NCBI RefSeq assembly: GCF_011043775.1
Contig: NZ_JAAKXY010000002.1
Location: 620,001-684,000 of the forward strand
Length of the DNA: 64,000 nt
Reading direction: 5' to 3'
Source of the DNA: Natronolimnobius sp. AArcel1
GTDB taxonomy: Archaea > Halobacteriota > Halobacteria > Halobacteriales > Natrialbaceae
How positions within the stretch are numbered: position 1 is the stretch's first letter; the number at the start of each line of letters is the position of its first letter. Position numbers and translations under genes: made by a program. Shown in pieces: positions 1 to 48,161 of the stretch. The notes under the pieces were generated by a model. It saw only the letters and a list, made by a program, of their open reading frames with translations, did no database searches and was not told the origin of the DNA.

Positions 1-132
1 GACGACGAACAGTCCCGCGAAGAACTCGTCCAGACGATGGTCGAGTCCTGTCACGTCGAGGTCGAGACCGACATGGACCGCAACGACGACCTGCTCGACG
101 CGCTGGATCTGCGCAACCGGATGACGAACTGA
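1..132 (+). CDS. C-terminal fragment of an unidentified protein
   Basis: An open frame enters from the left edge and stops with TGA at 130-132, giving 43 residues ending in DLRNRMTN. The piece is acidic, as expected for a halophile protein, and the window does not contain its start. No family can be named from so little sequence. The stop is only 34 bases before the mannanase start, so the two could share a transcript. Confidence 0.6.
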   Translation, partial: DDEQSREELVQTMVESCHVEVETDMDRNDDLLDALDLRNRMTN

Positions 133-166: not shown

Positions 167-1711
167 ATGACAGACCACACACCACACACGAACCACGACT
201 CGAACCGACCAGCACCCGACCAGCCTCGAGCGAGCCGTCGCGGCGTTATGAAAGCGATCGGTGCCGGTGCTGCAGCCGCAACTCTCGGCATCGCCGGCAT
301 CTCGCCGGCCGCAGCGACGCCCGACGTCTCCTTACCGACCGACGAGTTCGTCGAAACCGACGGCACCGAGTTCGTCATCGATGGCGAACCCGTCTACTTC
401 AACGGCGCGAACAACTTCTGGATCACCGACGACGACGCGAACGCGGCGACCGAGGAGCGCGTCGACGCCGTCTTCGACCTCTTCGATGAGTTGGGAATCA
501 ACCTCGTGCGCATCTGGGCCCACGGCGAGGCCAAGGAGGGCGAACTCGTCCTCCAGCCGGAACCCGGCGTCTACAACGAGGCGGCTCTCGAGCACCACGA
601 TTACGTGATCGAGGCCGCCCGCGAGCGCGGGATGAAACTCATCGTCGCCTTAGTCGACAACTGGGACCACGAAGGCGGCATGCTCCAGTACGCCGAGTGG
701 GCCGACGCGGAGTCGCGCTACGAGTTCTACACGATGGACGAGACTCGAGAGATGTACCGCAACCACGTCGAGACCATCCTCACGCGGGAGAATTCCTACA
801 GCGGCCTCGAGTGGCGCGACGATCCCACAATTGCGATGTGGGAACTCGCGAACGAGCCCCGACTCGAGCAGGACGACGTCCCCAACGATATGGACGATCT
901 CGAGCCGCCGGAACATCAGGAGATTCTCGGCGAGTGGATTCAGGAGATGTCGGCCTATATCAAAGACCTCGACGACAACCACCTCGTCTCGACGGGGTCG
1001 GAAGGCCACTACTACGGCCACTGGGAGGACGACTACCCGGACGACGACTGGGACGGCCAGGACTACCTCGAGCACCACTCCTACGACACGATTGACGCCG
1101 CCTCGTTCCACCTGTACCCCGACCACTGGGGCGACAACCCGGCAGATCCGGACGACCGGCTCTCCCTGCACGACGGCGCGGACTACATTACCGAGCGCGT
1201 CGAGGACGCACACAACGAACTGGGCATCCCGGCGTATCTCGGCGAGTTCAACGTCAATCTCTACGACCACGACCTCGAGACGCGCAATGAGTTCTTAGAG
1301 GAGTGGTACGACGCCGCCGATGCGGTCGACTGTAACGCCGTTATCCCGTGGCAGGTCGTCCTTGAGGACACGCAAGATCACGACGGCTTCCAGCTCTATG
1401 CGAGCGATTCGGGCTCCATCATCGAAGACTACGCCGAGGTCGTCGCTGAGAAAAGCGGTGACTGGGACGGTGACAACGGGAACGGCGACGAGGAAACAAT
1501 CGCCGTCGGCGAGTACAACACGACGGATACGACCAGCGATGGCCTGCACAACGATTTCACCGGTGATGGTGAGACGACCCACGACGACGTGACCGCCTTC
1601 TTTGAGAATCTCGAGGACGACGGCGTCCAGGACAATCCTGAGGCGTTCGACTTTGCCGAGAACGACGAACTCGGCTTTACGGACGTGGTTGAACTGCTCC
1701 GGCAGGTGTAG
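167..1711 (+). CDS. Secreted GH5 endo-beta-mannanase with C-terminal dockerin
   Basis: This 514-residue enzyme should hydrolyse internal beta-1,4-mannosidic bonds outside the cell. Residues 1-50 hold a Tat signal (SRRGVMK at 23-29, then an Ala/Gly-rich core). Residues 60-430 are a GH5 TIM barrel resembling fungal and plant type mannanases: FNGANNFW follows the first strand, the acid/base is E230 in MWELANEPR and the nucleophile is E360 in YLGEFNV. After a Gly/Asp linker, residues 459-514 form a dockerin-like module. Its loops are D463-D474 (DFTGDGETTHDD) and D495-D506 (DFAENDELGFTD). The same 56-residue ending is on six enzymes at 34.6-48.2 kb, so this is a distant member of that system. GH5 assignment is firm; mannan as substrate is inferred from overall resemblance. 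Confidence 0.88.
   Translation: MTDHTPHTNHDSNRPAPDQPRASRRGVMKAIGAGAAAATLGIAGISPAAATPDVSLPTDEFVETDGTEFVIDGEPVYFNGANNFWITDDDANAATEERVDAVFDLFDELGINLVRIWAHGEAKEGELVLQPEPGVYNEAALEHHDYVIEAARERGMKLIVALVDNWDHEGGMLQYAEWADAESRYEFYTMDETREMYRNHVETILTRENSYSGLEWRDDPTIAMWELANEPRLEQDDVPNDMDDLEPPEHQEILGEWIQEMSAYIKDLDDNHLVSTGSEGHYYGHWEDDYPDDDWDGQDYLEHHSYDTIDAASFHLYPDHWGDNPADPDDRLSLHDGADYITERVEDAHNELGIPAYLGEFNVNLYDHDLETRNEFLEEWYDAADAVDCNAVIPWQVVLEDTQDHDGFQLYASDSGSIIEDYAEVVAEKSGDWDGDNGNGDEETIAVGEYNTTDTTSDGLHNDFTGDGETTHDDVTAFFENLEDDGVQDNPEAFDFAENDELGFTDVVELLRQV
1541..1708 (+). repeat. Dockerin module copy 1 (mannanase)
   Basis: This segment codes for the 56-residue C-terminal module shared by seven enzymes in the window. 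It starts at GLHNDFTGDG and ends one codon before the stop. It lies about 33 kb from the other six copies. Confidence 0.85.
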
Positions 1712-29616: not shown

Positions 29617-32600
29617 ATGTTCGGTGACTGGGTGCAACGCCCGCTGATCAGGTACGCTGCTGGTCGCAGTCAACGATACTGGCCAGGGGCTCGCGGACGG
29701 TGGCTAGTACTCTGTTTGTGTCTCCTCACCGCCGTCGTGCTCTCGAGTCGGTCCGGTGCGGTCGGCTCCGTGCTCGAGTACGGTGGCGTTTTCGCCCCGT
29801 TCGTCCTCGGCCTCGCAGCGAACGGTGACCGAAACGACACCCTCGAGCAGCTTACGGCCGAAATCGAATCCTGCGTTGCCCAATTGGACCAAGAGACGGC
29901 GTCTGTCGTCGATGAATCCGATCCCGGCCGTGGTTTCGGCGTTGAGTCTTCATCTGCGTCCGCAGAGACCGTGCTCGCAGATCTCGAGGCGTTTGCAGCC
30001 GACCACGAAGACGAAATCGGCAGTCTCTCGAGTGCGCTCAGCGATCTGATTTCGACGGTCCGGACTCGAGAGCACCACCTCGAGCATCGGCGAGCCTTTA
30101 CCGACGAGGTCATCGATACCGTTGACGATCTGGTCTACGTTCTTGACCCGTCTGGCGAACTCCGGCGCTGGAATCGCAGCGTTAGCGACGTGACAGGCTA
30201 CGAGGACGACACCATCGCAGAGATGAACGCAATCGAATTCTTCGGCGAGAGTGACCGGAGTGCCATCGAAACGGCAGTCGCCGATGCTCTCGAGGAAGGA
30301 ACGGTGCGCGTCGAGGCGGCGCTCCTCACTGCCGAGGATGAGCGAATTCCTTACGAATTCTCTGCAAGCGCTCTCGAGGACCCTGACGGCAACACGGTCA
30401 TTGCCGGTGTTGGGCGGAATATCGCGGAGCGAACGGACTATGAGCACGACCTCGAGCGAACAACGCAGCTGTTAGCACAGGTTCAGTACCTCTCTACCGT
30501 TGGCGGGTGGGAAATAACGGCTCACGAGACTGATAATAGTGCGAACCGACAGTTCGGCGATGATCCCGATGATGACTACGAACTCCGCCTGACCGACGAA
30601 ACAGCACGCATTCACGGACTCGATCCCGATGTCGACACGACACTCACGGACGTTCTCGATATTTATCACCCGGACGACCGGCCACAGGTGAAACGTGCAC
30701 TCGAGCGGGCGCTCACGAATGGGGAACGCTATGATCTCGAGGTTCGACTCATCGATGGCGATGGGATACGCTGGGTTCGAACAACGGGCGAACCGGTTCA
30801 ATCAGACAAGACAGGGGCCGTCGTTCGAGGCTCAATTCAAAATATTACTGAGCAAAAATCCCGCGAGCAACGTCTCGAGGCGACGACGGCACGACTCGAG
30901 GCGCTGTTCGAAAACTCGCCGGACATCATCGACGTTCTCGATGAGGACGGCACGATTCTCGAGGTCAACCAGCGTTTCTGTACGGAACTTGGCTACACCG
31001 AAGCCGAGGTCGTCGGGACGAGTATCTGGGACTACGACGCCGAGTTCGATGCATCAGATGTGACGGGGTTACTCGAGGATCTCGCGGTTGGCGAGCGCCA
31101 GAAGTTTGAGGGGCGATTCGTGCGCTCGGACGGTTCGACGTTCCCGATCGAAGTTCACTTGATACGCCTCGATTTCTCCTGGGCTGCGACCGATTCCTCC
31201 CGGACTGAGACGACCAACCGCTATCTCGCGATCTGTCGTGATATCGGGGATCGAAAGACACGCGAGCAGGACTTACAGGAGACCAAACGCCGTCTCGAAC
31301 TCGCACTCGAGGGTGCCGATGCAGGGATCTGGGAGTGGCAAGTTGACACCGACGACATCGCCTGGAACGAGACGCTTGAACGGTTACTCGGACTTGAACC
31401 GGGTGGGTTCGAAGGGAACTACGAGGGCTTTGCCAGTCGCGTACACACCGACGATATCGCACGTGTCGAGCAGGCGCTCCAGCAGTCAGTCGACTCGGGA
31501 GAGCCCTACCGAGCGGAGTTTCGGATGCGTCACACGGACGACGAGTGGCGGTGGTTTGTTGCACGGGGGCGACTCATTACGGAGCCCACCGCCGGTGCTG
31601 AGACGGACACCAACGGCGGAACGATGCGAATGCTCGGCACCGTCAACGACATTACGCCCCGCAAGCGCAACGAGCGTCAACTCCGTGAACGAGAGCACGA
31701 ACTCGAGCGCTACAGAGCCTACACAAGTGACATTCTCGATGCGATCGACGACGTCGTGTACGTCCTCAACGACGACTACGAACTTCAGCGCTGGAACTCG
31801 AGTCTCTCGATGATCACCGGCTACGATGATACCGAACTCGAGGAGATAGACGCACTCGAGTTCATCGCGCCGGATGACCGCGAGGCAGTCCGAACGGGAC
31901 TCGACACGGTCGATAATCGCAAGGGCGCACCACTCGAGGCGGATGTTATTACGGCAGATGGTACGCGTATTCCATACGAATTCGTCGCCGCGCCGCTTTC
32001 TGATCCCGATGGTGAGCCAGTGATTGCGGGTGTTGGCCGTGATATCAGCGAGCGGGTCGAAAAGGAGCGACAGCTCTCGCGGCTGATTAGCAACGTCCCG
32101 GGATTCGTCTACCGCTCGAGAAACGAACCCGGGTGGCCGATCGAGTACGCGAGTCAGGGTGTCGAGGAAATTACGGGCTACGAAGCGCAAGCGTTCGAAC
32201 GCAGCGAGTTACTCTGGGGGGCCGATATCGACCGGAGCGATGGAATCTGGGAGACAGTACAGACCGCACTCGAGAAGCGCGAGTCGTTCAGTATCGTGTA
32301 CCCAATCGAAACTGCTGATGGCGAGCGACGATGGCTCAAAGAGCAAGGTAGCGGCGTGTATACCGGCGATGACGACACAGTCACCCTGATCGAAGGCGTG
32401 GTCATCGACATTACCGAGCGCATCGAGTACGAACAGCAACTCGAGCGAACGACAGACCTACTCGATCGCACCCAACGGCTGGCAGGCGTCGGTGGCTGGG
32501 AACTCAATATGCAAGACGACCCTCGGACCGCCACCTGGACTGAGGAGATGTATCGGATTCACGATCTGCCTCGTGACACTACGCCGAATTTAGAGCGGAC

Positions 32601-34587: not shown

Positions 34588-36171
34588 TTAGACCTGCCTG
34601 AGGAGGGCAACGACATCCGCAAAGCCGACCTCGTCGTTTTCGGCGAAGTCGAACGCCTCAGGGTTGTTCTGGACTCCCTCATCCTCGAGATGCTCGAAAA
34701 AGACCGTCACGTCGTCGTGAGTTGTCTGGCCGTCGCCAGTGAGGTCGGTATACGCCCCATCACCGTTCGGATCGGTCGGTTGGGTTCCGCCGATCTCGGG
34801 CGGCCTTGAACCACCTTCTCCCGGCGGTGCCTCGCCGAGTTCAACGGCCCGTGTGTGCTGGACGAGCCAGTCCGTCACGTCGCCATCCGGAACCTCGAGG
34901 TCACGCGTCGTCGACTCGAGCTCAGGATAGCCGCCAACGTCGTCCTGGCTATCGATGATCGTGCCGGTTCGATTCTCGACATCAGCGAGGATCCGCTCAT
35001 CGGTGTCGGTCTTGTCTGCGGGGCGAGCGCCGGCGTGCGAGCGGACCTGATCGTACGGATCGTCGTCGATCGGCGTGAAGTTCTCGGGCCAGTACTCCTC
35101 GATCGGCTCGGATTCAATCTCCCACGGGGCGTCGGGTTCGACCAGTGTATACCCATCGTCGGAGACGTTGTTCGACGTGTGGAGGTAGATCGTCGGATCG
35201 TTCTCGTCGTGGTTGGTGTAGATGAGCGGTCGGTCCGTGTCCGCGTCGGGTCCGGTCCGATAGTGGTTGCCAACGACGTTGACGAAGGTGGGTTCGTCTA
35301 CGTCGTCGCCGATCCGCATCCCACGTTCGAAATTGTACCAGACGTTGTTCGCGACGGTGGCCTCTGTGCCGCCCTTGAGACGCGGGTTGCGACTCCACGT
35401 GTGGGCATAGAGATTGCCCAGAATTGCCGTTCGGTCAGCCCCGTTCCCGACGAGGCTGCCGTAGGCGCGCTGGTTATCGCTGCCGTGGGCCGGCGAGTCG
35501 AACAGCCCTTCCGCGATAAGGTTGTTACTGAACGTGATGTCTTCGGAGTGTTCGCTTGCATTGACCGACATCGACTCCTCACTGCCCCAACTCACAGAAC
35601 AGTGGTCAAAACAGACGTTGAAGCCATTATCGCCGACGACCATCGAATCCGACGGCCCGTCAATCTCGTCGCCCGGCCGCGAACGGATGTGTTGGACGAA
35701 CTGATTTTCCTCGTCGAACTCGAGGCCGGGTGAATCCGCTCGGATGAGCGTGATTCCGGGCGACGGCGCGGTCTGTCCAGCGACGTAGATGTTCGTTCGC
35801 TCGGCTTGTATATCCGTATTCTCGAGATCAATGACGCCGCCGACCTCGAAGACGATGAGTCGCCGACCGACATCTTCGGCGTCTAACTCGTCGTAGCCCA
35901 CTTCGCAGGCCCACTTGAACGACCCCTCGCCTGCCGCATCGAGGTTCGTTACCCGGACCACGACGAGTGGCCCCTCCTCGAGCCAGGACAGATCGGCGAA
36001 GCCGTCGTCGGGTGCAATCGGCGAACTCGGTGACTCTGTCCCAATGTTGTCAATCGTGACGACCTTACGATTGTCTCTCGTCTCCTGAGCGGTGATCGTC
36101 TGCGTGTTTTCAAGTGTCGCTGCGCCAAGGCCCGCTGCTCCCACAGTATGCAAGAAGCTTCTTCGATCCAT
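34588..36171 (-). CDS. Secreted PL1-like pectate lyase with C-terminal dockerin
   Basis: The 527-residue protein should cleave polygalacturonate by beta-elimination outside the cell. Residues 2-20 form a Tat signal (DRRSFLHTVG). The right-handed beta-helix domain spans about 35-440, with the PL1-type FDHCSVSWGSEE at 188-199 and RNPRLKGG at 261-268, where the Arg and Lys act in catalysis. A Pro/Gly linker leads to the 56-residue dockerin module (472-527), with loops DLTGDGQTTHDD and DFAENDEVGFAD. The ATG at 36171 is chosen because the Tat motif begins there. The upstream gap (36172-36432) is AT-rich near the gene and otherwise blank. Confidence 0.87.
   Translation of the reverse strand: MDRRSFLHTVGAAGLGAATLENTQTITAQETRDNRKVVTIDNIGTESPSSPIAPDDGFADLSWLEEGPLVVVRVTNLDAAGEGSFKWACEVGYDELDAEDVGRRLIVFEVGGVIDLENTDIQAERTNIYVAGQTAPSPGITLIRADSPGLEFDEENQFVQHIRSRPGDEIDGPSDSMVVGDNGFNVCFDHCSVSWGSEESMSVNASEHSEDITFSNNLIAEGLFDSPAHGSDNQRAYGSLVGNGADRTAILGNLYAHTWSRNPRLKGGTEATVANNVWYNFERGMRIGDDVDEPTFVNVVGNHYRTGPDADTDRPLIYTNHDENDPTIYLHTSNNVSDDGYTLVEPDAPWEIESEPIEEYWPENFTPIDDDPYDQVRSHAGARPADKTDTDERILADVENRTGTIIDSQDDVGGYPELESTTRDLEVPDGDVTDWLVQHTRAVELGEAPPGEGGSRPPEIGGTQPTDPNGDGAYTDLTGDGQTTHDDVTVFFEHLEDEGVQNNPEAFDFAENDEVGFADVVALLRQV
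34591..34758 (-). repeat. Dockerin module copy 2 (pectate lyase)
   Basis: This is the 56-residue C-terminal module in its most divergent form at the first loop: DL replaces DF and Q replaces E. Positions 10-11 of the loop are still His-Asp as in all copies. Confidence 0.85.
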
Positions 36172-36432
36172 CGTATAAATGAATGGAGTATGGCAATGAA
36201 ATAAATCCACGTCCCCCGAGCCGACTGCCGGTTGGCGTAGCGCTACATGCCTCTAGCTCCGTTTCAGGAACGTGCTCTCTCGTTCTCTTACAAATACCGG
36301 TGTTCTTAGTACAGCCACCACTTTCCGCTCACAAACAACTAACGAGAGACTGGTTGCACTCGTGACTACTCGCCAATCTTCGAATCCGTACAAAAATTGT
36401 CCTTGAGGGTGGTGACGCCGAAACCGTGGCTG

Positions 36433-37617
36433 TTAGACCTGGCGAAGCAGGTCAACCACATCTGCAAAGCTGACTTCGTCATTGCCGGCGAAGTCGAACG
36501 CCTCTGGGTTATTCTGGACGCTTTCATCCTCGAGGTTCTCGAAGAAGGCGGTCACATCATCGTGGGTGGTCTCGCCATCACCAGTGAAATCGTTGTGGAG
36601 GCCGTCGTCGGTGCTATCCTGGGTTTCGTACTCGCCGACCTCGATTGATTCTGGTTCGGGATCCGAGCCGTCTCCAGCATCGCTGCCGCTCTCGTAGGTC
36701 GTCCCGTTGACCGTCACATCGAGCGTGTTGTAGGTCACATCGCCCTGGACGCCACCCCAGTACTCATTTCCGACTTCGATGCCGCTGACCCACAGGTCCT
36801 CGCTGAGGCCGTAGCGCTCGCTCATGAAGTCGATAATTTCGCTCAGGTCAACCTGTCCCGTCGTCAGGCCGCCACTGACGCGGAAGATATGAAACGCAGC
36901 ATCGGTCCCGCCGCCACCGCTGTAGACCGTCCAGTAGTCGATTTCGTTGCCGAACTGATCGGTCCAGACTCCGGGTTCGTCGACGCCACCGTGGCTGTGC
37001 TCGTCGCTCCACTCGAGGACGAGCATGATCTCATGGGTGTGCGTCTCGATCTGCTGGTCGGGCGGCTGTTCCATCAGCCACCACTCCTCGGCGAGGTTCC
37101 ACTCGCCGCCGGAGACGTTGAGATCGATGTCGACCTCGAGCGTCAGTTCGTCAATATCGCCACGCTGGACCGGGAACGAGCCGACGTCGCTGTCGTCGCC
37201 CCAGGGTTTGGTGCCGAGTAAGACCTGCGGGTAGTTCGGTTCGCCACCGTCGGGGCGGGTAGTCCACTCGTAGCCGTAGCTGCCGTCCTCGGCAAGCCAG
37301 CTACACATCTCGAAGCCGCTGTCTTCGACGCTTTCCCCCCAATCGTTGTTGATCAACAGGAAGTCTCCGTCACCGACGTCGATCTCGCCGAAGGACTCAC
37401 AGGTTTCCTCGAGTGGCTGTGCGCCGGCAACAGCGGTCCCGCCGAGTGCGAGTGCGCCCGCCGTTGCGCCCGTTGCCTGGACGAACCGCCGTCTCGAGAG
37501 TGCGCGGCTGGTTTCGCCGTCGTCGTGACTTGCCGCGGCGTCCGGGTCACGCTGTGGGTGGTCGGTCGTCTCGGTTCGGTCACCGTCTGTGTTGTCCGCG
37601 TGTGGATTCGAATTCAT
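36433..37617 (-). CDS. Secreted GH12 endo-beta-glucanase with C-terminal dockerin
   Basis: The 394-residue protein has a Tat signal (SRRRFVQATG at 41-50) and a GH12 beta-jelly-roll at about 70-308. Family marks are LLINNDWG at 87-94, the probable nucleophile E196 in THEIMLVLEW and the probable acid/base E285 in EVGNEYWGG. GH12 enzymes act on cellulose, mixed-linkage glucan or xyloglucan. Residues 339-394 are the dockerin module. Its start lies 35 bases after the stop of the GH5 gene upstream, so the two are probably one operon. Confidence 0.85.
   Translation of the reverse strand: MNSNPHADNTDGDRTETTDHPQRDPDAAASHDDGETSRALSRRRFVQATGATAGALALGGTAVAGAQPLEETCESFGEIDVGDGDFLLINNDWGESVEDSGFEMCSWLAEDGSYGYEWTTRPDGGEPNYPQVLLGTKPWGDDSDVGSFPVQRGDIDELTLEVDIDLNVSGGEWNLAEEWWLMEQPPDQQIETHTHEIMLVLEWSDEHSHGGVDEPGVWTDQFGNEIDYWTVYSGGGGTDAAFHIFRVSGGLTTGQVDLSEIIDFMSERYGLSEDLWVSGIEVGNEYWGGVQGDVTYNTLDVTVNGTTYESGSDAGDGSDPEPESIEVGEYETQDSTDDGLHNDFTGDGETTHDDVTAFFENLEDESVQNNPEAFDFAGNDEVSFADVVDLLRQV
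36436..36603 (-). repeat. Dockerin module copy 3 (GH12)
   Basis: This codes for the 56-residue C-terminal module, with loops DFTGDGETTHDD and DFAGNDEVSFAD. Confidence 0.85.
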
Positions 37618-37652: not shown

Positions 37653-39281
37653 TCAGACCCGTCGAAGCAGTTCGACCACGTCTGCAAAGCCAACATCCTC
37701 GTCGTCAGCGAAGTCGAACGCGTCCGGATTGTTCTGGATACCCTCATCCTCGAGATTTTCGAAGAATGCGGTCACGTCGTCGTGGGTCGTCTCACCGTCG
37801 CCGGTGAAGTCGTTGTGCAGGCCGTCGTCAGTCGTGTCCGCAGGTGTGTACTCGCCGACCTGAATCGGCTCTGGCTCCGGATCGGAGTCGCCACCATCGC
37901 CCGGAAGCCCATCGTTGCGATAGGCCTCGAGTTGTGCTTTGACGTACTCGCCGGCGAACTCGTCGCCGCCCAGCAAGTCCCACTCACAGGGCAGGTCCTC
38001 GCAGTGGACGGGAATCTCGTCTTCGTAGGGGTGGCCAATGGAGTCGGTATCGTCCGGCTGTGTCGGGTCTTCGTCGAGAAACGACCGCGTGAACATGACT
38101 GGGCGCCAGATCGGATCGGCACACCAGGCCGTCCAGTGAATCGCGTCGCTCGACTCGAGCCACTCGAAGAAGGGGTCGGCAAAGTCGCTCGTCTGGCCGT
38201 AGAGTTCGGTCGCGCCGGCGTGGGTTGCCTCCCAACCGAACTCGGTGACGAACACCGGCACCTCCTCGTAGACGCCGTCGGTGCCCATGCCGTCGATGCC
38301 GACCTCGTCCCAGGCTTCGTCCTGGCTGACGACGTGACCCGAGTAGATGTGGTAGGCGTAGGCGAGGTTGTCGCCCTCGAAGGGCTCGATGTAGTAGCCC
38401 TCCGGGTTCTGACTCCAACTTGGCGAGCCGACGATGACGATATTGTCGGCGTGCTCGCGGATCGTATCCACCCATGGCTGGGCTAACTCCTTCCACAGTC
38501 GCCAGTTGTCTCTGACCCACTGGCGGTCGACCTCGGCCCACATGCCGGGTTCGGTCGGCTCGTTGTAGACCTCATAAAGGACGTGGTCGTCGTCAGCGTA
38601 TCTCGGCGCGACGATTTCCCAGAACATGTCGACCTCTTCTTGCAGGTCCTCGTTGATCGTCTCGTCTTGACTGTCTCCCCACATGCCGTCCCAGCCGTCC
38701 TCGGCGTCGTTATCCGTCCAATGGCGGTGGAAATCGACGATGGCGTAGACGCCCAGGTCGCCTAACTGCTCGATAATCGGATCGTAATGCGTCTCGAGGT
38801 ACTCCTCGAGTTCGGCCTCGGTGAACGCGACTGGGTCGGGCGGGCCGCCGGTGTGGCCGGGTTCGTGCTCGCCGATATCGACTGGCTGGGCGGGCACGCG
38901 GATGACTCTGGGATACCAGCCCTGGCTCTCGTCCGTGAGGAGGTCCACGACGTGTTCGGCGGCTTTTCCGCGTGCCGGTGCTGTCACGTTCAGGCGCTTC
39001 GGATCAGCGATGTTGAGTCCGCGGAGCGTGACGGTGTTTCCCTGCGGATCTTTGATCAGGTTTCCCTCAACGTGGAGTCGTGGCGTTGGAATGCCACGGC
39101 CCGTCTCCGCTGCGGCCGACGTTGTTGCCCCTGTGGCGAACCCTGCCGCGAGCGCTCCCGTCACAGCCGTTGACTGCAAGAAGCGCCGGCGCGTTGTCTG
39201 TCGGTCATTAGTGACTCCGTTCTCGAGGCGAGTTGCTGACTGGTCGTCTGTCTGCCCGTCTGTCGATGATGCGTATTTCAT
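37653..39281 (-). CDS. Secreted GH5 cellulase with C-terminal dockerin
   Basis: The 542-residue protein has a Tat signal (TRRRFLQSTA at 30-39) and a GH5 barrel from about 65 to 455. The acid/base is E241 in YEVYNEPTEPG and the nucleophile is E347 in VFVTEFGW; the strand VDFHRHW at 182-188 is also typical. The dockerin module is 487-542. It is a close paralogue of the next GH5 upstream, sharing GWYPR, PAQPxDIGEH and a CEWxLLGG segment. A TATA-like AAATATATG at 39319-39327 is about 40 bases before the ATG. Endoglucanase activity is the best guess. Confidence 0.87.
   Translation of the reverse strand: MKYASSTDGQTDDQSATRLENGVTNDRQTTRRRFLQSTAVTGALAAGFATGATTSAAAETGRGIPTPRLHVEGNLIKDPQGNTVTLRGLNIADPKRLNVTAPARGKAAEHVVDLLTDESQGWYPRVIRVPAQPVDIGEHEPGHTGGPPDPVAFTEAELEEYLETHYDPIIEQLGDLGVYAIVDFHRHWTDNDAEDGWDGMWGDSQDETINEDLQEEVDMFWEIVAPRYADDDHVLYEVYNEPTEPGMWAEVDRQWVRDNWRLWKELAQPWVDTIREHADNIVIVGSPSWSQNPEGYYIEPFEGDNLAYAYHIYSGHVVSQDEAWDEVGIDGMGTDGVYEEVPVFVTEFGWEATHAGATELYGQTSDFADPFFEWLESSDAIHWTAWCADPIWRPVMFTRSFLDEDPTQPDDTDSIGHPYEDEIPVHCEDLPCEWDLLGGDEFAGEYVKAQLEAYRNDGLPGDGGDSDPEPEPIQVGEYTPADTTDDGLHNDFTGDGETTHDDVTAFFENLEDEGIQNNPDAFDFADDEDVGFADVVELLRRV
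37656..37823 (-). repeat. Dockerin module copy 4 (GH5)
   Basis: This codes for the 56-residue C-terminal module. By eye it shares about 65 consecutive identical bases with copy 5 (near 37774-37838 and 39509-39573), much more similar than the barrels of the two enzymes. Confidence 0.85.
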
Positions 39282-39387: not shown

Positions 39388-41547
39388 TTACAGCTGACGC
39401 AGCAGTTCAGCGACGTCCGAGAAGGTAACGTCACCGCTGTCGGTGAAGTCGAACGCCTCGGGGTTGTCCTGGACGCCATCGTCTTCGAAGTTCTCGAAGA
39501 AGGCGGTCACGTCGTCGTGGGTCGTCTCACCGTCGCCGGTGAAGTCGTTGTGCAGGCCGTCGTCAGTCGTATCTTGGGCCGTGTACTCGCCGACCTGAAT
39601 ACCCTCCGAGGGCTCGCCGTTGTAGAGGTCCGGATCGTCGTAACCGGGGTCGGTCGTCCCCAGATCGAACGGCACCAGATCGTCGCGGTGAACCTCGAGT
39701 TGCTCTTTGATGTACTCGCCGCTGTCTTCGCCGCCGAGCAGTTCCCACTCGCAAGGCTGGTCTTCGACATCGGGACATGGTGCGCCGTCTGGCAGCGCTG
39801 CCCAGATGTCCTCGAGGTCGGTGTCGTAGAAGTTGTCGTTGACGAGAACCTCGTCAACGAGGTCGCCTTCGTCGGGCCCTTCTGGGAACTCGAACATCGT
39901 TGGGTACCAGCGAACGTCGGCACACCAGGCGATCCAGCTGATGCGGTCGTCGTCTTCGATCTGGTCGAAGAACGGAATGCCGTACTCTGGTAGCGTCCCC
40001 TGGCCAGTGGTCGTCCCGCGCAGCCAGTGGGCAACTTCTGGATCGTCGATCCAGCCGAACTCACTGATCGAGATGTGATGGAAGTCCATCGCATCCTGCA
40101 AGCCGGCGGCTTCGTAGCCTTCCCAGCCGTAACACGAGTCTTCGTAGACATCCTGATCCGGCTCGATGTATGGATCAGTCAACTCACCGTCTGTCTCTGC
40201 AGCGATGTCTTCGTGCCAGCTGTAGTTCGTATCGTTGAACCAGTTGTTGAGTTGGCTCACGTCGTGGCCGGCGTAGTTGTGCCAGGTGACGGCGATATTG
40301 TCGTAGCCGGCGTCGTTGAAGTCGTACCAGTACAGTCCCTGCAGCGACTGACACCAGCCGGGGACGCCGACCAGCAGCACCTGTTCGGGCTGGTGCTGTC
40401 GAATCTCGTCGATGATCGGCCCCATGAAGTCGTCGACGAACGTCTCCCACAGCGGCTCCTGTTTGAGCGCGCCACAGCCCTCAACTGGCCCCCAGATACC
40501 TGGCGCCGTTGGCTCGTTGTACGGCTCAAAGACCACGTGTGGCTCGTCGGCGTACCGGTCGGCGACGACGCTCCAGAACAGCAACGCCTCCTCGAGCAGT
40601 TCTTCGTTGACCTGCCAGTTGTCGTACTCGTACGGCGTGCCAGGGATGTCAGCATCGGTTTCGATGCCAGCCCAGTCTTCATCCGGATTGTCTCGGTACT
40701 GGTGGTCGCCTTCGTTGATGTACGTCGAGTCGACGTGACCCCACGATGCCGGCGTTGTCTCGTCGAAGGAGACGTACTGGTCCTCGTACGTGTTGTACGC
40801 CCAGTAGTTCGTGTACGGACTGTCGTATGGCAGGTGATTCTCTGCCGCGCCGGGGTCTTCCGTTCCCGGCGGCTGTTCGTGCCAGTGACGGTGGAAGTCG
40901 ACGATGGCGTAGACGCCGCGTTCCTTACAGCGCTCGACGAGTGGGTCGTAGTAGTTCTCGAGATAATCCTCGAGTTCGGATTCGGTGAACGCGACGGGCT
41001 GTGGCGGCTGCATCGCCCGTCGATTGTCACGAATTGCGTCCGGATTCTCGATATCTGGAGCCTCCGGGCGTAGGTTGCCATCGTCGTCGAAGTACTCCGG
41101 ACCGGCGTGGCCCATCGGGTGTTCGCCAATGTCCTGTGGCTGGGCAGGCAGGCGGATAGCGCGTGGATACCAGCCACGGTCGTTGTTGGTCATCATGTCG
41201 AGCAACTGTAGCGGGGTTTTCCCTCGCAGTTGGCTCGTCCGGTCGAGTCGCTTCGGATCAGGGATGCTGACCCCCCGCATCTTGAACGGTTCGCCCGACT
41301 CGTTGACGATTCGGTTCTGGCTATCAATCGTCAGGTCCTCAAACTCGCTGATGTTGCCCGCAACGCTGCCAGTAATGCCTGCGCCCAGCCCGATTGCGGC
41401 CGCGCTTGCACCGGCTGTTGCTCGCATCATCGACCGGCGCGACATCCTGATCGTCGGCTGTTCGCTCGCGCGGTCTAATGCCCGTCGTTTTGTGCTCTGA
41501 TTCGTCGATTCGCCCGTCTGCCGTCTGCTATTGTTGTTGTTGCTCAT
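39388..41547 (-). CDS. Secreted long GH5 cellulase with C-terminal dockerin
   Basis: The 719-residue protein is the largest enzyme of the cluster. A Tat signal (SRRSMMRATAG at 36-46) sits unusually far from the start; an ATG at residue 35 could be the real start. The GH5 barrel spans about 70-625, with acid/base E345 in FEPYNEPTAPG and nucleophile E496 in ISEFGW. Compared with its paralogue at 37653-39281 it has insertions near 225-310 and 440-520, with Cys pairs that could form disulphides. The dockerin module is 664-719. The upstream 150 bases are very AT-rich. Confidence 0.87.
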   Translation of the reverse strand: MSNNNNSRRQTGESTNQSTKRRALDRASEQPTIRMSRRSMMRATAGASAAAIGLGAGITGSVAGNISEFEDLTIDSQNRIVNESGEPFKMRGVSIPDPKRLDRTSQLRGKTPLQLLDMMTNNDRGWYPRAIRLPAQPQDIGEHPMGHAGPEYFDDDGNLRPEAPDIENPDAIRDNRRAMQPPQPVAFTESELEDYLENYYDPLVERCKERGVYAIVDFHRHWHEQPPGTEDPGAAENHLPYDSPYTNYWAYNTYEDQYVSFDETTPASWGHVDSTYINEGDHQYRDNPDEDWAGIETDADIPGTPYEYDNWQVNEELLEEALLFWSVVADRYADEPHVVFEPYNEPTAPGIWGPVEGCGALKQEPLWETFVDDFMGPIIDEIRQHQPEQVLLVGVPGWCQSLQGLYWYDFNDAGYDNIAVTWHNYAGHDVSQLNNWFNDTNYSWHEDIAAETDGELTDPYIEPDQDVYEDSCYGWEGYEAAGLQDAMDFHHISISEFGWIDDPEVAHWLRGTTTGQGTLPEYGIPFFDQIEDDDRISWIAWCADVRWYPTMFEFPEGPDEGDLVDEVLVNDNFYDTDLEDIWAALPDGAPCPDVEDQPCEWELLGGEDSGEYIKEQLEVHRDDLVPFDLGTTDPGYDDPDLYNGEPSEGIQVGEYTAQDTTDDGLHNDFTGDGETTHDDVTAFFENFEDDGVQDNPEAFDFTDSGDVTFSDVAELLRQL
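39391..39558 (-). repeat. Dockerin module copy 5 (long GH5)
   Basis: This codes for the 56-residue C-terminal module; the second loop is DFTDSGDVTFSD, the most divergent second loop of the seven. Confidence 0.85.
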
Positions 41548-41697: not shown

Positions 41698-43434
41698 CTA
41701 GACGTCGTGAAGCAGGTCGACGACGTCCGCGAAGCCGATTTCGTCGTTGCCGGCAAAATCGAAGTCTTCCGCGTTCTGCTGGACCGCATCGTCCTCGAGG
41801 TTCTCGAAGAAGGCGGTCACGTCGTCGTGGGTGGTCTGGCCGTCACCGGTGAAGTCGTTCCGGAGGCCATCACCAGTCGTATCCTCGGGCGTGTAGTCGC
41901 CGACGACTGGGTCATCGTCGCCCTCTCCGTCGCCATCGACTGTAATTTCCAACTGGACAGGGGAAGTGGCGTCAGTGACTGAGACCTCTTGGGTCGCCGA
42001 TTCGCCGTTGACGGTGACCGTAACCTCGTGGTCGCCGTGGAACACTGCGGTCTCGAACTCGCCGCTGGCGTCGGTCGTCCCCGACTCGTCGGTCCACCAC
42101 TCATCGAAGACGAGGTCGACGTACTCGTCGTAGGCCGGCTTTTCGGTCCAGTCCTCCTCGTACAGCGGTGCGTCCGGATCGTCGCCCATTTCCGGGCCCC
42201 AGTGGACCGGGTCCCAGTGCCCCCACATGAGGAAGTCCTCGGCTTCGGGGTGACTGAAGAACGTCTTGAGGAACTGGTGGAGGTACTCGGCCTGCATCTG
42301 TCGATCCCAGCCGTCACCGAACATGTCGAATTCGGTGACCTTGAGGCCGGCGCCGTACTCGGCGTACTCGTCGAGCCGGGTCATCATCGTGTCGGGATCG
42401 ATGCGCTCGTGCTCATAGTGGTGAGACTGCATCCCGATGCCGTCGAGATCAATCCCACGCTCGTTCATCAAATAGTCGATCTGGTCATGGTACTGGTCGC
42501 GGGCGTAGCCGTGGTCGCCGTTGAGCGTATTATAGTCGTTGACCGCAATGTCGATGTCGTACCGGTCGGCGACCTCTTCACCGAACTCGTACCAGTCGCC
42601 CAGGATTTCTGCGGTCTCCGGCGTAACGTTGTCGCCCTCGACGGCCTCGATCATCGCCGGCTCGTGGAAGACCTCGTTGACGATCTCCCACTCCGTGATG
42701 TCGTCGCCGTAGTGTTCGATGATCGTCTCGATGTGATCCATTGACTCGGAGACGACGTAGTCGGGGTCGTGATCCGGCTCACCGGCTTCCTCCCAGTCTT
42801 CGCCCATCGCCTCGACGACCCGCGGCGGAATCGCGTGCGCGTCGATATTCCCCCACAGTGCGACGTGACCGCGCACGTCCATGTCTCGCTCACGCGCCCA
42901 CTCGACCGCGTCGTCGGCAATCTCGGTGTCGTCCTCCCAGATGTTCCACTTGTGGAGATTCTCGAGGACGATCATGTTGAAGTGCTCCTCGAGGGTTTCG
43001 GCGTAGCGCTCCTGATCTTCGTCGGTGTAGATATCCTCGCCCCACTCACTGCCCCGCGTGAGGAACTCGGCGTGGGCCATACACCCAAAGCCGAACTCGT
43101 GTTCCTGCTGTTCGATTTCGACCGTTGCGTCCGTGACAGACGAACCGTCCTCAGTCTCGACGACGACCTCGAGGTCACCCATTCGGTACTGTTCGATACG
43201 CTCGTCCGCGTCGGCTTCCCAGGATTCCTGTGCACCGACGGTTCCAGTGCTGCCCGCCGTAACGCCGAGGCCGGAAAGCCCGCCGACCAGTCCTGCAATG
43301 CCTATGCTCCGCAGATAGTCACGACGCTCGAGTGCGGCTGTGACGTCACGTTCTGCATTGTCTGTTACTGGCTGGTCGCCATCGGTTCGGTCCGCTTGCT
43401 CCGATCTCGTCGTATCGGTCTTGTCGTATGTCAT
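41698..43434 (-). CDS. Secreted GH10 endo-beta-1,4-xylanase with C-terminal dockerin
   Basis: The 578-residue protein has a Tat-like signal (ERRDYLRSIG at 36-45), then a small beta domain (80-115) often seen before GH10 barrels. The GH10 barrel spans about 115-445, with acid/base E254 in WEIVNEVFHEP and nucleophile E368 in LKVTEFDMFG. Residues 450-500 form a further beta domain (GEFETAVFHGDHEVTVTV). The dockerin module at 523-578 has GLRNDF instead of GLHNDF. It has no recognisable CBM of its own. Confidence 0.9.
   Translation of the reverse strand: MTYDKTDTTRSEQADRTDGDQPVTDNAERDVTAALERRDYLRSIGIAGLVGGLSGLGVTAGSTGTVGAQESWEADADERIEQYRMGDLEVVVETEDGSSVTDATVEIEQQEHEFGFGCMAHAEFLTRGSEWGEDIYTDEDQERYAETLEEHFNMIVLENLHKWNIWEDDTEIADDAVEWARERDMDVRGHVALWGNIDAHAIPPRVVEAMGEDWEEAGEPDHDPDYVVSESMDHIETIIEHYGDDITEWEIVNEVFHEPAMIEAVEGDNVTPETAEILGDWYEFGEEVADRYDIDIAVNDYNTLNGDHGYARDQYHDQIDYLMNERGIDLDGIGMQSHHYEHERIDPDTMMTRLDEYAEYGAGLKVTEFDMFGDGWDRQMQAEYLHQFLKTFFSHPEAEDFLMWGHWDPVHWGPEMGDDPDAPLYEEDWTEKPAYDEYVDLVFDEWWTDESGTTDASGEFETAVFHGDHEVTVTVNGESATQEVSVTDATSPVQLEITVDGDGEGDDDPVVGDYTPEDTTGDGLRNDFTGDGQTTHDDVTAFFENLEDDAVQQNAEDFDFAGNDEIGFADVVDLLHDV
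41701..41868 (-). repeat. Dockerin module copy 6 (GH10)
   Basis: This codes for the 56-residue C-terminal module; it ends in VVDLLHDV and has DFAGNDEIGFAD as second loop. Confidence 0.85.
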
Positions 43435-43693: not shown

Positions 43694-46063
43694 TTAGGAG
43701 ACGGTGATCTCGACTTCGTCAGTGGACTGACGATCGAGTTGGTCCGTCGCCGTCAGTGTCACCGTATAGGTTCCACTCGAGTCGTACGTGTGGTCGTTCC
43801 ACCAGCCGCTGGCGGTCGTGCCGTCGCCGAAGTCCCACTCGAGTGAGGCAATCCAGGCGTCGTTCGGTGACGTGTCGGTGACGCTGAATTCGAGTCGATC
43901 GCCAGCCGAGACGGATGTACTCGAGGGCTCCAGTTCGGCCAGATCGTCCTCGAGTGGAATCTCGCCGTCGAGTGGTTCCCAGGCACCGTTGATGTCGTAC
44001 TCGGGCTCTTGGCCTTGGTTCGTCCACTTGGCCTCCCAGTCTTCGCCCTCCCAGGAGACGCGCTCGCCTTCCTCGTAAAGGACGTCGGACTCCCATTCGG
44101 AGTAATCGCCCGGTTCGCCTGGGTCAGGGTCGTCCTCGTCGGTCGTCGCCGTCACCGTTGCGGTGTCGGTCTCGTCGCCATCGTCGTCAACGGCGCTGAC
44201 GCCGACTTCATACTCGGTGTCGTCATCGAGACCCGTCACCGTCGCACTCGAGGTCGTGGTATCGCTGTCGAGCGTGCCATCAACGTAGACGTTGAAGCTG
44301 GCTGCGTTTGCGTCGGCGCTCCAAGAGACCTCGATGGAACTCTCGGTTGTTTCGGCGACATCGAGGTCTTCGGGGACGACTGGCGACTCATCGACTGGTT
44401 CACCGTCGACGGACAGGGTTGCGGATTCGACGTCTGCGTCGATATCTTCGTCATCCAGATCCTCGATGCGGACGATTTCGACGTCGAGATCGGTCTCGCC
44501 GCCGGCTTCGCCCTCGAGTTCGACGTAGCCGAAGTCGATGTCGGTCGTGCCGGGGTCGAGCGGTTCAATAGCGCTGAGACGGACGGTGTCGCCATCGATA
44601 TCGACGTAGCTGATCGGTTCAGAGGTGTCTGGGAACGGCTCGCTGATGTCTGCGTCTGCAATCGAGGCGACGCTATCGTCGACGGTGAGATCGACCGTAA
44701 AGCCGAGCAGGCCGTCGGGTGCCTCCGAGAGGCCGAGGTCGACGGTCGTCGTGTCGCCAGTGTCGATCTCGTCGTCAGCTGGATCGACCGTGATCGTTGG
44801 CGTTTCCGGTGGCTCTTCACCGTCGACGGACAGCGTTGCAGACTCGACGTCTGCCTCAATATCTTCGTCATCCAGATCCTCGATGCGGACGATTTCGACA
44901 TCGATGTCGGTCTCGCCAGCGTCTTCGCCCTCGAGTTCGACGTGACCGAAGTCGATGTCGGTCGTACCGGGGTCGAGCGGTTCGATGGCACTGAGACGGA
45001 CAGTGTCGCCATCGATATCGACGTAGCTGATTGGTTCGGAGGTGTCTGGGAAGGTGTCGCTGATGTCAGCGTCAGCGATCGAAACGACGCTGTCATCGAT
45101 GGTGAGGTCAACGGTAAAGCCGAGCAGGCCGTCGGGTGCCTCCGAGAGGCCGAGGTCGACAGTCGTCGTCTCGCCAGATTCAATCTCGTTGTCTGCCAGA
45201 TCGACGGTTACCGTCGTCGTTTCCGGCGGCTCGTCGTCTTCTTCGTCCGTCGTTGCTGTCACCGTCTCAGTGTCAGTCTCGTCGCCGTCGTCGCCGACTG
45301 CGCTCACACCGATTTCGTACTCGGTGTCGGCCTCGAGACCGCTTAACGTTGCGCCGGCGGAACTGGTTTCGTCCTCGAGACTGCCGTCGAGATAGACGTT
45401 GTAGCTGGCCGCGTTCGCGTCGGCGCTCCAGTCGACTTCGATGGAACTCTCGCTCGTCGAGACGACCTCGAGGTCTGTTGGCGTACTTGGTGGCGACGGC
45501 TCGTCGTCGGGTTCGCCAACGGTCAGCGTCGGAGCGTCGTAATTGGCTTCTCGGATGACGTCGCTGTCCGGGTCGGTGAGTGCGAACTCGTCGAGTTCGA
45601 GGGTCGTTTCGCCCTCTTCCTCCTGGGCTTCGATGTGATAGGTTCCGACTTCGACTTCGGATTCCTCGATGTCAGCGATCCGTGGAAGCAAGATCGAGTC
45701 GACGCCGCCGCCTGCTTCCTCGATTTCGTCGTTCAGCTCGATTTCGAGCAACGAGTTATTGATGTCGACTTCAGTAATCAGTGCAACATCGGGATCGACC
45801 TCGAGCGTGACGTTGACGCCGGCCGAGCCGACTGGGGCATCCTCGAGCGAAACCGTTGCCGTTGTCGTTTCACCGGGGTCGACTTGTTCGTCAGCCAGTT
45901 CGGTGACGATGGTTGGAACGTCCTGTGCGGATGCCGCTGAGGCACCGAGTGTGAGCGCGCCTGCGCTCGCGCCGGCAGCTTTGATGAAGGTGCGGCGTGA
46001 GGTCGGTGTGCGATCTTCTGCGTCCTTTTCGTCTGTCGCGTGGGTTGTCGTGTCGTCGTTCAT
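43694..46063 (-). CDS. Scaffoldin-like secreted protein: three cohesin-like, two Fn3, CBM5/12 and PKD modules
   Basis: The 789-residue protein has a Tat signal (SRRTFIKAAG at 22-31). Cohesin-like domains lie at about 49-183, 283-414 and 421-553. Each begins with the pattern V(D/E)PGETTTxxVxL, continues with a DLTxDDS strand and ends with a VESATLSVDG type strand. Fn3 domains lie at 194-273 and 562-642. A CBM5/12-like module (652-699: VLYEEGERVSWEGEDWEAKW, then GQEPE and W695) should bind cellulose or chitin. A PKD domain (708-789, EWDFGDG) ends the chain. There is no dockerin or membrane anchor. Lying among six dockerin-bearing enzymes, it is the obvious assembly platform. The start at 46063 is set by the Tat motif; ATGs at 46099 and 46147 are in frame. 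That the modules are functional cohesins is inference from family resemblance and context. Confidence 0.85.
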   Translation of the reverse strand: MNDDTTTHATDEKDAEDRTPTSRRTFIKAAGASAGALTLGASAASAQDVPTIVTELADEQVDPGETTTATVSLEDAPVGSAGVNVTLEVDPDVALITEVDINNSLLEIELNDEIEEAGGGVDSILLPRIADIEESEVEVGTYHIEAQEEEGETTLELDEFALTDPDSDVIREANYDAPTLTVGEPDDEPSPPSTPTDLEVVSTSESSIEVDWSADANAASYNVYLDGSLEDETSSAGATLSGLEADTEYEIGVSAVGDDGDETDTETVTATTDEEDDEPPETTTVTVDLADNEIESGETTTVDLGLSEAPDGLLGFTVDLTIDDSVVSIADADISDTFPDTSEPISYVDIDGDTVRLSAIEPLDPGTTDIDFGHVELEGEDAGETDIDVEIVRIEDLDDEDIEADVESATLSVDGEEPPETPTITVDPADDEIDTGDTTTVDLGLSEAPDGLLGFTVDLTVDDSVASIADADISEPFPDTSEPISYVDIDGDTVRLSAIEPLDPGTTDIDFGYVELEGEAGGETDLDVEIVRIEDLDDEDIDADVESATLSVDGEPVDESPVVPEDLDVAETTESSIEVSWSADANAASFNVYVDGTLDSDTTTSSATVTGLDDDTEYEVGVSAVDDDGDETDTATVTATTDEDDPDPGEPGDYSEWESDVLYEEGERVSWEGEDWEAKWTNQGQEPEYDINGAWEPLDGEIPLEDDLAELEPSSTSVSAGDRLEFSVTDTSPNDAWIASLEWDFGDGTTASGWWNDHTYDSSGTYTVTLTATDQLDRQSTDEVEITVS
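44405..45217 (-). repeat. Tandem near-identical cohesin-like modules 2 and 3
   Basis: Two units of about 400 bases (44822-45217 and 44405-44803) encode almost the same 132 residues, including an identical run around DGLLGFTVDL and VRLSAIEPLDPGTTDID. The differences are few, indicating recent duplication or gene conversion. Module 1 is clearly diverged. Confidence 0.9.
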
Positions 46064-46199
46064 TGTGGGTGTCTCCTCGCTTGCTGTCTCCGATTCCATG
46101 CTGGTGCTCGCTCTCTCGCTCGTGCCCGCCAGCGATGGAAGGGACACATATTACAGCTCTATTCCGACAGATAATAAGATTTTTTATCGGCTGAATAAA

Positions 46200-46280: not shown

Positions 46281-48161
46281 TTAGATTTCGTTGAGCAGTT
46301 CCACGACGTCTGCAAAGCTGACCTCGCCGTCGCCGGCGAAGTCGAACGCATCAGGGTTGCCCTGTACGTTTTCGTCCTCGAGGTTCTCGAAGAAGGCGGT
46401 CACGTCGTCGTGGGTGGTGTCGCCATCGCCGGTGAAGTCGTTGTGCAGGCCGTCGTCGGTGGTGTCTTCTGCGTTGTAGTCGCCGACCTGGATGCCGTCG
46501 TCATCGGCGTCAATCGGACCCGGGCCGATGTGCAGTGAGTTCTTCTCGTTGTCAGCATCTGGATACGGCTCGTCACCGGGGGCGAACTCGTCGCGGTCGC
46601 CAGCCATTTCCTGGTTCCACTCGTGCCACCAGGCACCGGGTGTGTCCTCGTTCAGGTAGTCCATCCAGTCATCAGCATCGGGTGCGCCGGATTCGCCATC
46701 TGGGCCAGGGTCGCCGTGTTCGAACATGTGCGGCTCCCAGCTGTGGTCGAAACACCACGCCAGTGGGTGGACATCGTACTCGAGCAGGAACTCCTCATAG
46801 CCCTCGATAAACGGCTCACAGTCGGCGTCTTCGGGATCCTGGTCGGGATCGGTCGTACAGTCCATCCACGGCGTATCGACTTCCTTGCCACCGCCTTCGA
46901 TCCAGCCGAACTCACTGAAGAAGATCGGTACGTGCTCGGATGGCTCGCCGATGTAGTCGCCGAGTGGCCGCATGTCTTCTTGCGTGTAGACGTGGGCCGT
47001 GTAACACATGTTCTCGGCGTCGAACTCGTTGTACGGTGCCCAGTAGGCGTACTGGCTCCAGCGTGGGCTGCCGATCGTGATGAGGTGGCCGGGTGCGTTC
47101 TCCTCGACCGTATCGACCCACGGCTGGGCACGGTCACGCCAGAGGTCGTACCAGCCTTTCATCTCGTCGAGTCGAACGTCGTAGTCGCCTTCGGCCTCGC
47201 CCGGTGCTTGCTCTGGGAAGGAAAGTTCACCTGCCTGACGCTCTGGGCCGCCCCAGTCGCCGCCGTACGGGCCGGTTGGCTCGTTGTAGACGTCGAAAAT
47301 GACGTGGTCGTCGCCTGCATACCGGTCGGCGATGACCTCCCAGAACGTGTGCAGTTCGTCGTCGAGCGCGTTCGAAATTTCAGCCGGCTCGAGGTAGATA
47401 TCGTCTTCGTCGAGGTCGAACGCTTCAACGATGTTTTGGTCGTCGATAAGACTCCAGATGTCGTCGACCTGGTCCTCGCCGTGCCAGAGAACGCCGCGTT
47501 CGCCACAGACTTCCGAATTGCGCCAGCTTTCGCCGCCATCGGAGTCACACTGCCAGATGTCGTACGGAATATCGTGGTTTGCGTGGTCTTCCTGGTGGAA
47601 AACCGGATAGTGGCGGTGGTAGTCAATCATCACGTAAGCGCCGCGCTCGGCACCCATGTCGACGAGTTCGTCGAGATACGTCTGGCAGTACCACTCGACG
47701 TCGCTCGCATCGAACGAGCCGGGGAGCAGCGGTCCCCAGTCGTCGCCGTGTGGCATCTGTCCCGGTTCTGGTGCCTGCGTACCGGCGGAGATGAACTCAG
47801 CTTGAACCGGGATGCGGACGATGTTCGTGTACCAGCCTTCGCTCTCGTCAGTCGCCAACTCGAACGTTTCGGGTGCGGTCTGTCCGCGCCAGTCACGACT
47901 CTGCTCGCCCGGGTCGGCGATGTTGACGCCACGGAGAATTACCTCGTTCCCGCTCGGGTCGACGATTTTGTTTCCGTCGCGTGCAAGCGGCGGCAGATCG
48001 GCTGCCTGCCCCGCTGCACTGCCGGCGACCGCCCCAAGGCCACCAACTGCGAGGACGCTTGCGCCAGTTGCCTTCATAATAGACCGCCGTGACGTCGAGA
48101 TTCCTCGACGCCCGCCAGTTGCCTGTGCTGCTCGGTCAGATGGATTCGTGTTCTCGGTCAT
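46281..48161 (-). CDS. Secreted GH5 cellulase with C-terminal dockerin
   Basis: The 626-residue protein is the most upstream gene of the cluster in the direction of transcription. The Tat signal is SRRSIMKATG at 24-33. The GH5 barrel runs from about 60 to 525, with acid/base E294 in FDVYNEPTGPYG and nucleophile E417 in IFFSEFGW; DYHRHY at 180-185 is typical. Cys residues at 205, 219, 434 and 448 may form disulphides. The dockerin module is 571-626, with the most canonical second loop, DFAGDGEVSFAD. The start is the ATG at 48161; the frame is open to 48236 without signal-peptide character. Confidence 0.87.
   Translation of the reverse strand: MTENTNPSDRAAQATGGRRGISTSRRSIMKATGASVLAVGGLGAVAGSAAGQAADLPPLARDGNKIVDPSGNEVILRGVNIADPGEQSRDWRGQTAPETFELATDESEGWYTNIVRIPVQAEFISAGTQAPEPGQMPHGDDWGPLLPGSFDASDVEWYCQTYLDELVDMGAERGAYVMIDYHRHYPVFHQEDHANHDIPYDIWQCDSDGGESWRNSEVCGERGVLWHGEDQVDDIWSLIDDQNIVEAFDLDEDDIYLEPAEISNALDDELHTFWEVIADRYAGDDHVIFDVYNEPTGPYGGDWGGPERQAGELSFPEQAPGEAEGDYDVRLDEMKGWYDLWRDRAQPWVDTVEENAPGHLITIGSPRWSQYAYWAPYNEFDAENMCYTAHVYTQEDMRPLGDYIGEPSEHVPIFFSEFGWIEGGGKEVDTPWMDCTTDPDQDPEDADCEPFIEGYEEFLLEYDVHPLAWCFDHSWEPHMFEHGDPGPDGESGAPDADDWMDYLNEDTPGAWWHEWNQEMAGDRDEFAPGDEPYPDADNEKNSLHIGPGPIDADDDGIQVGDYNAEDTTDDGLHNDFTGDGDTTHDDVTAFFENLEDENVQGNPDAFDFAGDGEVSFADVVELLNEI
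46284..46451 (-). repeat. Dockerin module copy 7 (GH5)
   Basis: This codes for the 56-residue C-terminal module, where both loops keep a D-x-x-G-D-G start. Confidence 0.85.

Follow-up and report, generated by a model that had tools for sequence, protein, structure and literature searches.

A 2025 review attributes cellulosomes to certain bacteria and fungi that live anaerobically, and the only archaeon to figure in its main text is Archaeoglobus, as a source for designer constructs (PMC12484212). The excerpted sections of a study on ANME archaea report scaffoldin-like proteins with up to five cohesins and a dockerin in these organisms, and cite earlier work in which archaea were considered to be without multi-cohesin scaffoldins (PMC9012536). 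Regarding haloarchaea, the available portions of PMC10267330 call the way in which cellulotrophic species attack insoluble fibre “almost unknown” and refer to “yet undetectable domains” in their enzymes. A GH5/GH10 gene cluster has been described in Natronoglomus mannanivorans (PMC10963439, Table 1), and the sections of that paper used here read a 1,755-aa protein as a GH5/CBM6 endoglucanase and a 258-aa protein as an S-layer glycoprotein; “cohesin” and “cellulosom” are absent from its main text. Additionally, among the papers listed by searches of the open-licence PMC literature, none deals with scaffoldins or cellulosomes of haloarchaea.

The DNA analysed here is a stretch of 64,000 nucleotides (the window) from Natronolimnobius sp. 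AArcel1. A preliminary description had noticed, near the start of the window, a mannanase (P0001) with the same C-terminal module as the enzymes of a cluster some 33 kb away. This is confirmed: the ORF is exactly 167-1711(+), of 514 aa, the module is present in 13 copies in the genome at E<=6e-19, and the distance from 1711 to the cluster at 34588 is 32.9 kb. The housekeeping genes said to lie in between are also there, ordinary families having been recognised in 8 of the 9 intervening ORFs scanned (replication factor C, S-adenosylhomocysteine hydrolase, a P-type ATPase and an MFS protein, among others). We consider it likely that P0001 and the cluster enzymes take part in a complex of the cellulosome type, with mannan degradation among its activities; that cohesins and dockerins bind each other is inferred from their folds, their linkage and their co-occurrence. 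The features at the start of the window are the following:

1..132, + strand, 3′ end of u3 (567 aa, start at L016:18429), directly upstream of P0001 and without a dockerin
167..1711, + strand, P0001, GH5 enzyme of predicted endo-mannanase type with a TAT signal, terminal gene of a four-gene run
380..1333, + strand, GH5 catalytic domain of P0001, residues 72-389 (PF00150, E 1.2e-13)
1514..1708, + strand, predicted C-terminal dockerin module of P0001, with two EF-hand-like loops and an N-terminal Asp-rich stretch

P0001 is of the GH5 endo-beta-mannanase type, as it combines a GH5 barrel, two catalytic Glu and mannanases as its nearest structures; its activity is predicted. Of the 16 PDB chains matched at E<=1e-3, every one bears the name of a mannanase or mannosidase except a single mannosyl-oligosaccharide glucosidase/Man5A, and the best of them is 8gf3 (“GH5 Mannanase”, E 1.3e-58). 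The Glu of WELANEPR and the Glu of LGEFNV, which we take to be the acid/base and the nucleophile, align with Glu of the mannanase structures 8gf3 and 9m20, and the enzyme presumably belongs to GH5 subfamily 7. The TAT signal scores 16.9 bits with TIGR01409, against a cut-off of 16.7.

The idea that the mannanase is isolated was rejected, as P0001 is terminal in a same-strand run of four genes, two of the others being module-bearing. The run consists of u1 (GH5 plus module), u2 (module), u3 (no module) and P0001, separated by gaps of 45, 130 and 34 bp; it begins upstream of the window, which opens inside u3. The second genome of this genus has orthologues of u1, u2 and P0001 in identical order (L091). 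The u2 product, of 239 aa, ends in the module and has no Pfam match; by eye, it is similar to the domain at the end of the scaffoldin of a relative, G344, discussed below.

The cluster itself comprises seven genes on the opposite strand:

34588..36210, - strand, P0002, pectate-lyase-like protein with dockerin (module 34591-34782)
36433..37617, - strand, P0003, GH12-like cellulase with dockerin (module 36436-36630; PDB 3wx5, “Cellulase”, E 6.4e-6; assignment to GH12 presumed)
37653..39281, - strand, P0004, GH5 enzyme with dockerin (module 37656-37850)
39388..41547, - strand, P0005, GH5 enzyme with dockerin (module 39391-39585)
41698..43434, - strand, P0006, GH10 enzyme with dockerin (module 41701-41895)
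43694..46147, - strand, P0007, putative scaffoldin of 817 aa with a TAT-like signal, three predicted cohesins, fn3 domains, a CBM5/12-like stretch and PKD
45509..45916, - strand, predicted cohesin 1 of P0007
44813..45217, - strand, predicted cohesin 2 of P0007 (the modelled one)
44396..44800, - strand, predicted cohesin 3 of P0007
46281..48236, - strand, P0008, GH5 enzyme with dockerin (module 46284-46478)

P0007 thus lies between dockerin genes, an arrangement that is also found in relatives, and contains three related tandem domains of ~135 residues each. Its CBM_5_12 match has an E of 2.2e-4 and 21.6 bits against a cut-off of 26.2 (23.5 bits in the Halopiger homologue).

On one side, the cluster is adjoined by a convergent gene for a 1,648-aa PAS/GAF/BAT-HTH_10 sensor-regulator (29617-34563(+)), a possible regulator. 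Divergent to the cluster, a gene for a secreted-looking PQQ-type beta-propeller protein is found at 48456-49640(+).

The expectation that further dockerin enzymes would lie outside the window was borne out by a genome-wide search with the module, which returned 13 proteins in four places, plus two weak rows at E 0.002 and 0.2. Seven of the 13 are encoded inside the window, whereas C2:617-618 kb, C4:96-98 kb and C6:110-113 kb account for the other 6. The carriers are five GH5, two GH10, one GH9, one GH43, one pectate-lyase-like and one GH12-like protein, an alpha/beta-hydrolase and u2, so that 11 of the 13 have a polysaccharide-enzyme assignment. At C4, the module genes code for a GH43 with a ricin-type lectin and for the alpha/beta-hydrolase, and at C6 for a GH10 and the GH9. 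Adjoining these GH10 and GH9 dockerin genes, L020:7607-8902(+) appears by eye to be a close homologue of P0003 in which PKD replaces the dockerin.

With respect to the degree of conservation, the last 56 residues of P0001 had been called almost identical to those of the cluster enzymes. The likeness is indeed far beyond chance, but the wording overstated it, as P0001 shares 79, 86, 80, 80, 79 and 75% of these residues with the six enzymes of the cluster (59-88% across all 12 other copies). The accompanying view of the module as a mobile unit had to be abandoned, because the modules are passed on with their genes: in the sister species (G062), a reciprocal orthologue that also bears the module exists for each of the 13, with 84-94% identity outside the module, and the nearest module is that of the orthologue in 12 of the 13, the sole exception being u1, whose module is closest to that of the mannanase orthologue. 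As, in addition, the catalytic parts of the GH5 paralogues of the genome are ~27-46% identical where alignable, against up to 88% for modules, the module either reached the different enzymes in the distant past or has been homogenised; at the genus scale, it is now inherited vertically.

By fold and profile, the module is a predicted dockerin, with two EF-hand-like loops, a helix after each and predicted calcium sites. Its model (pLDDT 94.3) has helices at 23-31 and 55-64, and the first nine rows of a Foldseek search and 20 of 20 rows of a VIA search with this model are dockerins, although the scores are weak for 65 residues (best E 0.31 and Z <=6.3, respectively). When the dockerin profile (A4) was compared with the PDB, EF-hand proteins were matched at E 8.5e-10 and the CelS dockerin (2mte) at E 2.4e-6. 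The Pfam dockerin family (PF00404) retrieves nothing from this genome at E<=1e-3 and the window proteins stay under its cut-off (for instance, 16.0 bits for the P0008 dockerin, with a cut-off of 22.9); in relatives, it reaches up to E 6e-9. Positions D14, D18, G19, D25 and D46, D57 are invariant in the 13 copies, and D5, D9 and D14, in the Asp-rich stretch before loop 1, are invariant in 41 of 41 modules. The recognition positions read His-Asp in loop 1 and Phe-[Ala/Ser/Thr] in loop 2 in all 13 modules; in bacterial dockerins, these loop positions decide specificity. Since the recognition pairs of the two repeats differ, the module is predicted not to be a symmetric type I dockerin with a dual binding mode. 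The suggestion that mannan degradation forms part of the same set is plausible.

The three tandem domains of P0007, judging from their fold, are predicted cohesins. The model of cohesin 2 (pLDDT 88.5) retrieves cohesins at ranks 1-43 of the VIA search (Z 16.6-12.8), the first non-cohesin being the CLIPPER domain 9ifr at rank 44, with a Z of also 12.8, and Foldseek matches it best to 6kgc_A (E 6.8e-9) and to the A. fulgidus cohesin 2xdh at E 5.1e-7. At the level of profiles, a search of the PDB with only the three cohesins (A2) gave unrelated rows only, at E 0.56 and above, and broader profiles did better: one built from 46 such domains (A5) has the Scaffoldin C cohesin 5lxv_A on top at E 6.7e-4, followed by a row at 0.074. 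The Pfam Cohesin family (PF00963) is found at E<=1 in 17 of these 46 members (best 4.9e-6), and cohesin 2 of the window scores 14.9 bits with it, the cut-off being 24.1. Bacterial cohesins bind dockerins by the face formed by strands 8-3-6-5. In the cohesins studied here, the exposed residues of the corresponding face are more variable than those of the other face and, contrary to the low acidity expected of a binding face, were not less acidic (0.29 vs 0.21, p 0.26), which speaks against the cellulosome reading.

According to the mechanism that we propose, P0001 and the 12 other proteins with a dockerin would be secreted components of a cellulosome-type system in this haloarchaeon. The enzymes would be exported, several of them visibly by the TAT route (a TAT signal above the cut-off is present in 3 of the 9 dockerin proteins scanned), and outside the cell the C-terminal dockerin would fold around calcium and plug into one of the three cohesins of P0007, whose CBM5/12-like and PKD parts may keep the assembly on the insoluble polysaccharide. 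As the residues at the specificity positions are identical in all 13 dockerins, any of these should fit any P0007 socket. Each complex would then hold three enzymes in varying combinations, bringing together mannan, xylan, cellulose, arabinan and pectin activities.

Among 391 genomes of the class, a cohesin match was found in 135 and a dockerin match in 163, both being present in 129, cohesins only in 6, dockerins only in 34 and neither in 222; these co-occurrence counts ignore kinship and are inflated by proteins that carry both modules. In the family of this organism, 49 sampled genomes have dockerins (10 with at least six, 39 with one or two), and all 10 sampled family genomes with at least five modules also have a frame with at least two cohesins. 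Cohesins were detected in 58 of the 125 family genomes searched, at least 13 of which have two or more in one frame; the per-genome counts of modules and cohesins in the class and family surveys are lower bounds, since no more than 10 or 15 candidates were scored in each genome, and one wrong-frame ORF (L102_3174) was removed from the cohesin set. The largest scaffoldin-like protein among the matches listed is a 2,104-aa frame with ten cohesins (G391 C1:1624700-1629016). Additionally, G264, G208 and further genomes encode adaptor-like proteins that combine cohesins with a dockerin, and Halococcoides cellulosivorans (G002) has 17 cohesin matches.

The loci of relatives were obtained by scanning contigs with dockerins, which gave 12 loci, the scan with cohesins having returned no relative. 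The 77 dockerin proteins scanned in these clusters, from which ORF L099_7274 had been removed by an acidity filter (its start or frame being likely wrong), include 44 GH5, 6 GH10 and 4 GH9, GH81, PL14 and rhamnogalacturonan lyase being represented once or twice each. Wherever the module was matched at E<1e-6 in the loci analysed, it ends <=8 residues from the C-terminus.

A different reading would be that the module is a substrate-binding accessory domain and that no enzyme complex forms. A substrate-binding role has been proposed in the consulted sections of PMC10963439 (Natronoglomus) and PMC13260240 (glycosaminoglycan), and the module is placed where carbohydrate-binding modules often sit. 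Nevertheless, we regard this explanation as unlikely, as fold and profile are those of a dockerin, a cohesin scaffoldin is encoded in the same cluster and the module is also carried by PhoX-like phosphatases, which have no obvious polysaccharide to bind. The preliminary description had itself reasoned that a module found widely on proteins unrelated to polysaccharides would suggest another role, and the results are divided in this respect: its carriers are mainly polysaccharide enzymes in this genome and in the clusters of relatives, but in other haloarchaea the carrier is often a PhoX-like phosphatase (11 of 20 scanned). Consequently, the module would be a general docking tag, here used for polysaccharide enzymes, and its presence alone does not mean polysaccharide.

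In many haloarchaea, the PhoX-like phosphatase has a cohesin and a C-terminal dockerin and is encoded beside a cohesin protein of 250-300 aa. Examples of these proteins are the following:

L102:3953-6664, - strand, example of the PhoX-like phosphatase and cohesin-protein group
L115:7559-10189, + strand, and L115:10186-11016, + strand, a further example of the same group

The small cohesin protein of L115 ends in a PGF-containing stretch. The PhoX-like phosphatase and the small cohesin protein are a putative docking pair of a separate, non-cellulosomal kind.

It could also be argued that proteins with a single cohesin, instead of P0007, receive the dockerins and so tie the enzymes to the S-layer or cell surface, in which case there would be display without a multi-enzyme complex. 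For instance, a single-cohesin protein is present in six of the clusters, and all five sequences inspected end in a hydrophobic stretch, three of them with a PGF-type motif (by eye), which suggests a surface anchor. A fourth cohesin protein is also encoded in the genome studied here (L127:6491-7585(-), on C5; 364 aa, with weak CARDB-like matches), but it has no C-terminal membrane segment and no dockerin genes were found in the 15 kb around it; indeed, none of the 4 cohesin matches of this genome is membrane-anchored. Cell-surface attachment of cellulosomes is common, not universal. As the three-cohesin P0007 lies inside the cluster and both modes can coexist, we judge display without a complex to be quite improbable. 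Finally, two genomes of one genus (G079 and G089, of g47), with 7 and 5 dockerins, in which the broad profile detects no cohesin at E<=1e-3 (2 of the 19 genomes searched), would agree with modules that act as a calcium-dependent stabiliser or a secretion or maturation tag without a partner, an explanation that is hardly credible when 129 of the 135 cohesin-positive genomes have dockerins and multi-cohesin proteins sit inside dockerin clusters.

Returning to the cellulosome-type complex, a broader reading joins the observations made in all these organisms, and we lean towards it, if only slightly. Haloarchaea would run true cellulosomes of their own, archaeal, probably aerobic and hypersaline, with scaffoldins of two to ten cohesins, PGF-type-anchored surface cohesins, adaptors with cohesins and a dockerin, and a type of dockerin that an additional calcium loop suits to molar salt. 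The haloarchaea that grow on cellulose or mannan would owe that ability to these complexes, and the dockerin domains published as “substrate-binding” would be docking tags. If true, this would account for the ability of cellulotrophic haloarchaea to break down insoluble fibre, would provide cohesin-dockerin pairs working in saturated salt and would mean that a gene cluster already in print has to be read differently (PMC10963439); it is, furthermore, testable at every step in cultivable strains.

When compared with clostridial cellulosomes (PDB 1ohz, 2vn5, 4fl4; for Ruminococcus, 5lxv), the system described here is similar in its GH5, GH9, GH10 and GH43 enzymes with C-terminal dockerins, in the multi-cohesin scaffoldin of the same cluster, in the cohesin fold (Z up to 16.6) and in the dockerins that top the structure search with the module. 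By contrast, it is archaeal, its proteins are acidic and export is predicted to be by TAT. P0007 has fn3, CBM5/12-like and PKD parts, whereas clostridial scaffoldins carry CBM3, and the dockerins differ from the clostridial ones in that loop 1 is preceded by an additional Asp stretch, which is invariant, and that the two recognition pairs are unlike.

The cluster is of the same kind as the one described in the consulted part of PMC10963439 (Table 1). Since fifteen ORFs of G344 follow the published Natronoglomus order, with nine equal sizes (637, 610, 258, 759, 589, 577, 815, 835 and 490), this genome very probably is that of Natronoglomus mannanivorans or a close species. In contrast to the published reading, the G344 protein that matches the 1,755-aa one (L087:5074-10380(+)) carries a GH5 and eight cohesins, and that matching the 258-aa one (L087:10657-11433(+)) has one cohesin and a C-terminal hydrophobic end.

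Among archaea, the Archaeoglobus fulgidus cohesin (PDB 2xdh) shares the fold, with a Z of 15.6 to the cohesin 2 model. In ANME archaea, unlike here, the dockerins named in the consulted sections of PMC9012536 belong to binding proteins of ABC transporters and to S-layer proteins and not to a set of plant-polysaccharide enzymes. Multi-cohesin archaeal proteins are therefore not new; judging from the open-licence papers listed, what appears to be new is that haloarchaea employ them for plant-fibre enzymes.
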